A DNA stretch of 64,000 bases from an uncultured Lachnospiraceae bacterium. Lineage in GTDB: Bacteria > Bacillota > Clostridia > Lachnospirales > Lachnospiraceae. Below the pieces are notes generated by a model, which did not search any database, had not been told where the DNA came from, and saw only the letters and a program-made list of their open reading frames with translations. The translations under genes and the position numbers were made by a program. Positions 14,180-46,584 of the stretch are shown in pieces (positions within the stretch are counted from its first letter, which is position 1; the number at the start of each line of letters is the position of its first letter). The DNA lies in the NCBI GenBank assembly GCA_947166015.1, contig CAMVCQ010000002.1, positions 1 through 64,000 on the forward strand, written 5' to 3'.

Positions 14180-15142
14180 ATGTTTGGTTATGTCACTGCA
14201 AACAGACCTGAATTAAAGATCAGGGAATTCGCCGAATACAAAGGGTATTATTGCGGACTGTGCCATATGCTTCGGAAAAAATACGGAGCAGATGCAGGGT
14301 TTACATTGACATACGACATGACATTTTTGATCATGCTTCTAAGCTCGCTGTATGAGCCGAAACTTGAGAGAAAAAAAAGAAGATGCCCGATCCATCCGAT
14401 CAGGAAACAATATATGATCCGCAATGAAATAACAGAGTATGCGGCTGATATGAATCTGCTTCTTGCGAGGGACAATCTGAGAGATGATTGGGAGGATGAA
14501 AAAAGCATAAAAGCATTTTTCGGCAAATGGCTTTTTGACAGAAGGGCTGACTTTGTCGAAAGCAAATACCCCAGACAGGCAGAGGCTATATCGGATGCGT
14601 TAAAAGAGCTTGGAAGGATAGAACGCGATCATATGTATCGCTGGTCTGAGATGTGCGGTGCTGACTACGATACTACGAAATTCATCAAAAAAGAAGAGCT
14701 GTTGTCAAGGCTTCTTGTAAGCAAAAGAAAAACAAGGATAAGCTTTGACAAAATATATGATGATATGGAGGCGGAAGACCTTGATCTGGTGACAAGACCT
14801 TTCGCAAAAATGATGAGTGAAATAGTTGCGATGAAGGATGATGCATTCGCTCCGATACTCAAAAAATTCGGTTATTATTTGGGTAAATATATATACATAA
14901 AAGATGCGCTCTGTGATCTTGAAAACGACATTAAAAATGCCTCGTTCAATCCATTTTTGATGACAAAAATGACAAAAGAATACAGAGCCTGGATAGACAG
15001 TCTCCAGCAGGCAAACTTGGGAGCCTGCATAGCGGAATTTGAAAAGCTTCCGCTCGAGAGAGATCTGCCGATACTCAGAAATATAATCTACGAAGGAATA
15101 AAAATGTCCGGTAAAAAATGTAAGACAGGAGAAAAGAAATGA
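14180..15142 (+). CDS. DUF5685-like family protein
   Basis: [36 protein letters not shown]...; CxxC near the N-terminus; directly upstream of a J-domain gene. Confidence 0.7.
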
Positions 15143-15816
15143 ACGATCCATATTCAGTCCTTGGAGTGAGCCCGCAAGCGTCAGACAGAGACATAAAAAA
15201 AGCATACAGACAGATGAGCAAAAAGTATCATCCTGATTCATACTCTGATCCCGCTCAAAAAGAATGGGCCGAAGGAAAATTTCAGGAGGTACAGGCTGCG
15301 TACAACCAGATTGTAGAGGAGAGATCAGGTCGTGGCGGATACAGAAGTCAGAGCTATGGCTACGGGGGAACAGGCGGAAGCCAGGCGGATCAGCATCTGA
15401 TGGCTGCTGCAAACTATATCAGGGCAGGAAAGTACAACGAAGCGATAAATGTATTGAATGGTATTTCCGAACGTGATGCAAGGTGGTATTATTTCAGTTC
15501 GGTGTCAAATCTCGGACTCGGAAACACGGCGGTTGCGCTTGATTATGCTCAAAGAGCGGTCAATATGGACCCGACGAACGCCGAGTACAGTGCATACTAC
15601 GAGAGACTCAGAAGCGGAAACGCATCGGCTTCGGGATTTGGAGGAAGTCCTTTCGGGGGCGGATACGGTGGCTACGGAGGCTACGGTGGCTACGGTAACT
15701 ACGGAAGAGGCGGTTATGGAACCGGAGGCTGCGGCACCGGGAATATCTGCTGCGATCTGTGGTGCCTGGATTCGTGCTGTGAGTGCATGGGCGGAGATCT
15801 GTGTAGTTGTTGTTAG
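15139..15816 (+). CDS. J-domain protein with Gly/Tyr-rich linker and Cys-rich C-terminus
   Basis: [31 protein letters not shown] (HPD motif); [35 protein letters not shown] tail. Confidence 0.88.
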
Positions 15817-15833
15817 TGTTCGTCATGGAGGCA

Positions 15834-15961
15834 ATGTGAAAAATCACGCCGATGCGCTGATTTTTCACATGGATATTTGCGACGAGCACAAATATCCTTT
15901 GATCCGACATGCGTGCTTGAGGCACGCATGCGGTGACTCGCATAAATGCTCGTCATGGAGG
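15834..15961 (+). other. Candidate structured leader element L, copy 1 (four hairpins + Shine-Dalgarno)
   Basis: H1 15834-15870, H2 15871-15897, H3 15908-15930, H4 15934-15955, then TGGAGG just before the TTG start at 15967. Homologous to 46220-46584 (minus) with compensatory changes. Confidence 0.8.
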
Positions 15962-15966
15962 AAGGT

Positions 15967-16518
15967 TTGAACGAAAAAGATATCAGAAAAAGAACAAAAA
16001 TGGTTGCCTATGTGGCCGTGATGACCGCATTAGGCACTGTTTTTCTATTGTTGGGAACATTCATCGGGATCAACACCGTGTTTTTCACGGCGCTTGCATC
16101 CTATCTGGTTGGGATCATAGCTGTTGAATACGGTCTTGGTGCGTCGATCATGCATTATTTCGGATGTGCTGTACTTGATGCATTATTGAATCCAAACAAA
16201 TTTCATGTTTTTTTATTCCTTGGGATGGGAGCATTTATCCTGATAGCCGAAAACACATATAGATTTTTTGAGAAAAAAATCCCTGAAAGAGTGACGCTTA
16301 CGGTGGTACATTATTTGTTTCGGGCGGGCATTTTTGCGGCTGTATATATACCGCTTATCCTCCTGCTTCCGGAGCTGTTTTTGAGCGAATCGATCTATGG
16401 AAGCAGTTATTTTTATCTCGTAGCGACTATCGCCGGGATTGTCGGATTTTTCGTGTTTGACAAGGCTTATGTGATCCTTAAGAGCATTTATTTGCGGACT
16501 TTTAAAAACAGATTATGA
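15967..16518 (+). CDS. Hypothetical multi-TM membrane protein (possible ECF S-component-like)
   Basis: Hydrophobic ORF MNEKDIRKRTKMVAYVAVMTALGTVFLLLGTF...; TTG start 5 nt after GGAGG supplied by element L. Confidence 0.6.
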   Translation: MNEKDIRKRTKMVAYVAVMTALGTVFLLLGTFIGINTVFFTALASYLVGIIAVEYGLGASIMHYFGCAVLDALLNPNKFHVFLFLGMGAFILIAENTYRFFEKKIPERVTLTVVHYLFRAGIFAAVYIPLILLLPELFLSESIYGSSYFYLVATIAGIVGFFVFDKAYVILKSIYLRTFKNRL

Positions 16519-45876: not shown

Positions 45877-46213
45877 TGTTTCCTCCATTCCTGTCGGACG
45901 ATTTTTCTGAGTTTTCATAACAATAAATCAATAGATCCTGCATTACATGGTTTCCGTCAGAGGGCTTTTTGTGCGAATCATACATGACATTTTTTCTGCT
46001 GACGCCAATGAGCAGATAAAGCGGATCTGCGCCCATGTATCTGTATAGATTGATAACTTTTTTTACATCTATCGTGTATGCGCCTGACTCGAGCTTGCGG
46101 TAGTGATCCACGCTGACATCCAATATATTTGCAAGCTCTGTCTTTGACAGTCCGGCTCGAAGCCTCAGTTTTTGGAGCCTTTGTCCGATCTCTTCGTTTT
46201 CCTGTTTTCTCAT
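45869..46213 (-). CDS. XRE-family HTH regulator
   Basis: IGQRLQKLRLRAGLSKTELANILDVSVDHYRKLESGAYTID; ATG at 46213 preceded by GGAGG from element L. Confidence 0.88.
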   Translation of the reverse strand: MRKQENEEIGQRLQKLRLRAGLSKTELANILDVSVDHYRKLESGAYTIDVKKVINLYRYMGADPLYLLIGVSRKNVMYDSHKKPSDGNHVMQDLLIYCYENSEKSSDRNGGNNV

Positions 46214-46219
46214 AATATT

Positions 46220-46584
46220 CCTCCATGACGAGCACTTGTGCGAGTCACCGCATACGTGCCTCCAGCACGTATGTCGGATCAAAGGCTATTTGTGACGCTC
46301 CGGCACAAATAGCCGTGTGAAAAATCGTTACTATTCACGGGTAACCAAACCATTCGGAATGTCCGTTCTTCTCGCTTTGACCTTGCAAGCAAGCTTGCAG
46401 ATTCAAAGCTTCGTAGAACTCTATCGTGTCTTTCAGACACACATTCCTCATGTGCTTTGGTTACCGTACACGGTTTGTATGTAATGTATATGCACACTTT
46501 AGAGCAAGCTCTAAGTGTACATATACATTACATACACCCGTGAATAGTAACGAAAAATCAGCATATCAATGCGATTTTTCACAC
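46220..46584 (-). other. Candidate structured leader element L, copy 2, interrupted by a 225-bp insertion
   Basis: Minus strand: gtgtgaaaaatc..//..gatttttcacac-ggctatttg..caaatagcc-tttgatccga-catacgtgc..gcacgtatg-cggtgactcgcacaagtgctcgtcatggagg; collinear with 15834-15961 after removing the insertion. Confidence 0.82.
46327..46551. mobile_element. MITE-like non-autonomous element nested in leader element L
   Basis: Perfect 16-bp TIR gttactattcacgggt / acccgtgaatagtaac; flanked by 8-bp direct repeat gaaaaatc (46319-46326, 46552-46559); no transposase ORF. Confidence 0.88.

Follow-up and report, generated by a model that had tools for sequence, protein, structure and literature searches.

We report here a leader element, two copies of which lie in the window (the whole stretch of 64,000 nucleotides that was analysed), and which is probably a non-autonomous mobile element that inserts between the Shine-Dalgarno sequence (SD) and the start codon of a gene, replaces the SD with its own and is transcribed into a structured RNA. 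The copies are dispersed, lie in one orientation and at one position directly before start codons, replace the native SD, are missing from empty orthologous sites in relatives and share a conserved RNA-like fold.

A preliminary description of this DNA had proposed a 5'-leader element that is mobile or duplicated and brings its own SD, and the proposal is strongly supported. The four hairpins, the linkers and the shared ends were all confirmed in position, including the common 3' end TGCTCGTCATGGAGG, and each stem shows one compensatory change between the two copies (H1, A-T to G-C; H2, A-T to C-G; H3, G-C to A-T; H4, T-A to C-G). The GGAGG motifs assigned as the SD of the next gene were likewise recovered, at 15957-15961 before the TTG at 15967 and at 46220-46224 (minus strand) before the ATG at 46213. 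The features of the window are as follows.

15834-15961, plus strand: element copy 1, type A, from the 5' tip of H1 to the SD (blastn and covariance-model matches)
15834-15870, plus strand: hairpin H1, ATGTGAAAAATC...GATTTTTCACAT (two-sided changes in 12 of 15 H1 pairs among 77 copies)
15871-15897, plus strand: hairpin H2, GGATATTTG...CAAATATCC (covariation in 9 of 9 pairs)
15881-15887, plus strand: pseudoknot 5' strand GACGAGC, inside the H2 loop (partner GCTCGTC at 15948-15954)
15908-15930, plus strand: hairpin H3, CATGCGTGC...GCACGCATG (every H3 pair covaries)
15934-15955, plus strand: hairpin H4, TGAC..CAT-aa-ATG..GTCA (own arms score above swapped arms, 3.81 vs 3.38 +/- 0.07)
15948-15954, plus strand: strand X, GCTCGTC, which is both the H4 3' arm and the pseudoknot 3' strand, in mutually exclusive pairings
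15957-15961, plus strand: element-borne SD GGAGG (in the family, TGGAG 5-6 nt before the start)
15967-16518, plus strand: downstream gene, a membrane protein with TTG start at 15967 and no Pfam match
15814-15833, plus strand: scar left by an older element, TAGTGT fused to TCGTCATGGAGG (15814-15831), then CA; its initial bases are shared with the stop codon of the ORF upstream, 15139-15816
46220-46584, minus strand: element copy 2, interrupted; a chimera of a type B 5' half and a type A 3' half
46220-46224, minus strand: SD GGAGG of copy 2, before an XRE-type regulator with ATG at 46213
46327-46551, minus strand: nested 225-bp MITE in H1 of copy 2, with ends GTTACTATTCACGGG and the 8-bp GATTTTTC at its flanks

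Copy 1 looks intact. In copy 2, a type B loop of H2 (CCGGAGCG) is combined with a type A 3' half (GCTCGTC), and the pseudoknot is therefore mismatched. What had been described as an insertion in this copy is a palindromic MITE with inverted ends and an 8-bp target duplication, of which seven full-length copies and many fragments were found in the same genome, two weak matches in the relative G009, and none in five further relatives. Since it is recombinant, has a mismatched pseudoknot and carries the MITE in H1, copy 2 is probably in decay, with an SD that continues to be used.

About 60 copies of the element family are dispersed in its own 2.1-Mb genome (G000), where a blastn search with copy 1 gave 46 matches at 40-odd places and a covariance model built from 20 copies gave 68. 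The 3' halves are of at least two main kinds, type A (ending ...CATGCGTGC/GCACGCATGCGGTGACTCGCACAAGTGCTCGTCATGGAGG) and type B (ending ...GGCAGACGAGAAC/GTTCTCGTCGCCACTCCGTCGCTACGCTCCGGAATGGAG), and there are rarer subtypes (L022, L037, L292 and L303). Identity among type B copies from unrelated loci reaches 97-100%, which marks recent spread in bursts. Within the genus, matches were obtained in the genomes of at least 30 of the 37 species sampled and the number of exact H1 cores per genome varied widely, from 0 to 37; the reversed H1 core, used as a control on the same genomes, gave none. The distribution outside the genus is patchy, with matches under strict settings in 5 of 196 genomes of the order Lachnospirales, from two families, and the exact H1 pattern occurs in at least 118 stretches of GTDB genomes, almost all of which carry the label Lachnospiraceae or related Clostridia. 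Many dispersed, modular copies that vary between strains and species, as in BOX-like small interspersed repeats, are thus what was found.

Shorter subtypes of ~95 nt still end in an SD before an ATG. A minimal subtype of ~95 nt, with only H1, H2 and a short tail, GAGCAAGAATGGGGGATTAATATG, lies directly before the ATG at L194, L179:7333, L208 and L221. At L292 (G000:C91:355-640), a divergent subfamily, the H1 of which is GGTGAAAATAAA/TTTATTTTCACC, is present in tandem before a single gene, in at least two and apparently three copies, possibly through a different mode of amplification.

The position of the element was analysed in 60 strong hits selected by the H1 pattern alone, and therefore blind to downstream sequence. 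An SD-led sense ORF of at least 50 codons started at the 3' end in 50 of the 60, against 10.8% of random positions, and no antisense ORF was found at the 5' end of the same hits; several of the remaining ten also end at an ATG, either of a short ORF or past a small insertion. The start codon is ATG in 117 of 120 copies, with the element SD ending 5-6 nt upstream. The downstream genes are unrelated and include hrcA, acetolactate synthase, argininosuccinate lyase, a flagellar rod protein, glycogen branching enzyme, hydF, UDP-GlcNAc epimerase and DUF1385, together with serS, efp, ruvA and thioredoxin, which were identified by eye only. A few copies (L011:989, L034, L040, L202 and L168) lie before ATGs of very short ORFs of ~7-22 codons, and such ORFs follow three copies in G000, which hints that the target is a sequence and not a gene function.

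Comparison with orthologous loci revealed how these positions arose. In G000, hrcA is preceded by CIRCE, a native GGGAGG, TTGCCTA, the element and then GTATG; in six relatives, CIRCE is followed by SD and ATG without the element. The relatives use GGCGG as the SD of argH, and this ancestral motif was found 5' of the G000 copy, and flgG and DUF1385 show the same pattern, several relatives having SD and ATG without the element. An SD of ancestral type thus remains to the left of the G000 copies, now ~130 nt upstream of the start. As the orthologous sites are empty and the ancestral SD is still present upstream, GTGTG...GGAGATTA inserts between SD and start, after TA. The ends of the insertions can be placed only to within a few bases, because the relatives are ~75-90% identical at the compared loci.

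The flanks of the copies agree with this site. An SD-like stretch ending 2-5 nt before the element was found in the 5' flank of 111 of 120 copies and is followed at the left edge by T (82%) and A (93%); the right edge is TTA. These edges would fit either duplication of a TA or insertion behind one. TATG is probably part of the target, because T stands at -1 at only 33% of element-free start sites of the same genome, compared with 69% behind the element. Terminal inverted repeats are absent, as the 5' end GTGTGAAAAAT and the 3' end TGGAGATTA are not mutual inverted repeats, and no exact target duplication was found. Tandem copies join GGAGATTA directly to GTGTG, a junction that defines the unit. 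Copies have also landed behind the SD of older, partly deleted copies (copy 1, L015, L023, L024 and L027), and a 5' scar of the same kind as that before copy 1 was found at trkA in G002 and G011. Tandem copies, deletion scars and near-identical recent copies likewise show mobility.

Folding of copy 1 and four related copies gave z scores of -5.4 to -7.9 relative to dinucleotide shuffles, with none of 200 shuffles reaching the native value. Two copies alone are insufficient to prove covariation, and the proof comes from 77 divergent copies, in the alignment of which covariation is significant: 94.4% of cells were paired, as against 76.0% when shuffled and 35-47% with slid partners, and two-sided changes occurred in 41 of 44 pairs (0 of 500 shuffles). 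The near-invariant H1 core is swapped in rare subtypes for other complementary sequence (GGTTGAATAAA/TTTATTCAACC, GATTGAAAAAT/ATTTTTCAATC and GGTGAAAATAAA/TTTATTTTCACC). No match to a known family was obtained when the window was searched against Rfam 15 at the gathering threshold, and four other loci gave only two chance-level matches (E 0.7-1) to unrelated families.

The four hairpins of the preliminary description stand, but a pseudoknot that competes with H4 had been overlooked. It joins the loop of H2 to the strand that immediately precedes the SD; the two strands are GACGAGC/GCTCGTC for type A and CCGGAGCG/CGCTCCGG for type B, while other subtypes have TTCTGAGCGA/TCGCTCAGAA, CGAAGCGC/GCGCTTCG and CCGCAGRCG/CGTCTGCGG. 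In an alignment that was not fitted to the pseudoknot, 79.5% of its cells were paired compared with 67.6% when shuffled, the covariation was 0.368 compared with 0.170 (0 of 500 shuffles), and the signal fell when the strands were slid; the H2 loop scored 8.17 with its own 3' end and 5.72 +/- 0.17 with swapped ones. For H4, the maximum of 20000 permutations of the arms was 3.69, below the score of its own arms. H4 and the pseudoknot are mutually exclusive, because both use strand X, so that a conserved fold with alternative pairings near the expression platform, as looked for in a riboswitch, is present. The hairpin adjoining the SD is upheld. Pairing between its 5' arm and the SD itself, in contrast, shows no covariation: such anti-SD pairing is seen in type B (CUCCGU/AUGGAG), but own pairs scored no better than swapped ones (3.63 vs 3.68), and it is for this reason not claimed.

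These observations lead us to the following model. The element is probably a non-autonomous, mobile unit of ~95-190 nt, the transcribed form of which is a compact structured RNA. It inserts in one orientation only, directly after the target TA, giving SD-nn-TA / GTGTG...TGGAGATTA / native nT-ATG, and would be mobilised in trans. The native SD is stranded ~130 nt upstream and the SD at the 3' end of the element takes over, leaving the gene translatable, which would explain why copies are tolerated before important genes such as hrcA, serS, efp, ilvB and argH. In the mRNA, the partner of strand X would be the 5' arm of H4 in one state and the H2 loop in the other, and how accessible the new SD is would be set by the balance of the two states or by initiation from the native SD at an NTG in H1. 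Translational control by the element is plausible. Set against the model are the failure to find an autonomous partner, terminal inverted repeats or an exact target duplication, the coarse resolution of the insertion boundaries, the very short ORFs behind three G000 copies and the lack of covariation between the H4 arm and the SD. The fuller reading, of a selfish element that colonises initiation sites and, through a bistable H4/pseudoknot switch with its own SD, places dozens of unrelated and even essential genes of a single bacterium under shared translational control, is a possibility that we put forward tentatively.

Several other explanations were weighed. Two exclusive and conserved pairings of the SD-adjacent strand, a pseudoknot kept across subtypes and a constant position are also what a true cis-regulatory RNA (a riboswitch, thermosensor or protein-responsive leader) would show if it had been copied before many genes, its dispersal being regulatory and not selfish. 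However, the downstream genes are unrelated and differ between species at orthologous loci, the copy number is very variable within the genus and near-identical copies imply recent bursts, and we consider this origin unlikely. A purely DNA-level palindrome, already raised as an alternative in the preliminary description, would have hairpins that serve a single-strand transposase, as in IS200/IS605 or REP elements, and an RNA fold that is incidental. The element is hairpin-rich, lacks terminal inverted repeats, has a strand-specific target and carries SD-like sequence at both edges, which resembles the left and right cleavage sites of IS200/IS605; yet the SD-adjacent pseudoknot strand covaries and tolerates G-U pairs, covariation extends across all hairpins and not the ends alone, and the Y1 transposase family (PF01797) is absent from G000, which has the highest number of copies, its presence across the genus showing no link to copy number. 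The probability of this explanation appears low, and DNA-level hairpins may nevertheless contribute to mobility.

In nearly all copies, an NTG (GTG, ATG or TTG) followed by AAA AAT was observed at the 5' tip of H1. Ribosomes might start there, because the native SD ends 2-5 nt before the element, a normal spacing to the NTG. According to a translated-leader explanation, they would read from this codon (GT-GTG-AAA-AAT) and arrive at the start downstream or be coupled to it; the H1 position is nearly always G, A or T, and in 21 of 61 divergent copies the reading frame runs without a stop as far as the downstream start or beyond it, with 2 and 0 for the other frames, a weak comparison because fixed stops in H1 close those frames. 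As 40 of the 61 copies have an internal stop, the position of which is not conserved, a translated leader is improbable; a conserved leader peptide was rejected, the frame from the GTG in H1 being often open but not conserved. Insertion of an RNA copy by a reverse transcriptase, of the group II intron type or another, would explain the sense orientation inside transcripts, since the element lies in a single orientation and always in the transcribed leader, and its 5' end GTGTG resembles the group II intron 5' consensus, GUGYG. On the other hand, reverse transcriptase (PF00078) is absent from G000, no group II match was found in Rfam and the element is too short for an intron, making such retro-copying very improbable.

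The searches for a mobiliser of the SD-replacing element gave no match to PF01797 (IS200/IS605) in G000, a 130-contig draft that may lack multi-copy transposons, and none to PF00078 in the same draft; with both families absent there, neither was retained as mobiliser. PF01797 presence across the genus does not track element copy number. No autonomous version with a gene between the ends was seen, the H1-only hits being contig ends or the ~95-nt subtypes. A phage or plasmid origin was also rejected, with no hit in plasmids and none in viral_contigs using two patterns. Three unannotated human-fecal 'Bacteriophage sp.' contigs of 5-9 kb carry a copy, e.g. L320 (MT838414.1:1705-1852), and may be bacterial fragments.

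Small dispersed repeats of bacteria are usually seen as passengers between genes. In these gut Lachnospirales, by contrast, the few bases from SD to start are the target, which suggests precise targeting of the translation start site by a mobile element. The element permits a direct test of how such a unit can spread through essential genes without killing, and of whether it rewires many genes' translation simultaneously. It also offers a large natural set of pseudoknot variants beside a ribosome-binding site (77 aligned here, with many more available), and gene finding as well as promoter and leader annotation in Lachnospiraceae are affected.

Open-licence papers on small repeats and on structured RNAs of the gut contained no match to the element, and no description of SD-start confinement, SD replacement or a conserved pseudoknot/hairpin alternative was found in the open-licence literature. 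As a kind, the leader element belongs with small repeats scattered in bacterial genomes, for instance BOX, RUP and SPRITE of Streptococcus pneumoniae, which are short, modular, multi-copy and intergenic, have strongly folded transcripts, insert into one another and are mobilised in trans (PMC3049150). The leader element shares these features, probably including mobilisation in trans. RUP and BOX differ from it in their terminal inverted repeats and in that they may also disrupt genes, and they come with target duplications. The nested 225-bp MITE, of the classic TIR type, is dispersed and non-coding in the same genome as the leader element but has inverted ends, which the latter lacks, and an 8-bp target duplication, whereas no exact duplication was found for the latter. 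RUP and BOX are not known to be restricted to the interval between SD and start, to take the place of the SD or to contain such a pseudoknot.

Repeats of the REP/PATE kind, mobilised by RAYT or IS200/IS605 Y1 transposases, are also palindromic, strand-specific and without terminal inverted repeats; the leader element differs in its four hairpins and pseudoknot, its fixed sense position at starts and a genome without Y1 transposase. With translational pseudoknot riboswitches such as preQ1 and SAM-V it shares an SD-adjacent pseudoknot strand and alternative pairings, and it differs from them in being mobile and multi-copy, with no Rfam match and no common gene function. The TAACTGA repeats of marine Beggiatoaceae, for which a translational role has been proposed, likewise occur in many forward-oriented copies right before start codons, but are heptanucleotide direct repeats without SD or hairpins (PMC4679880).
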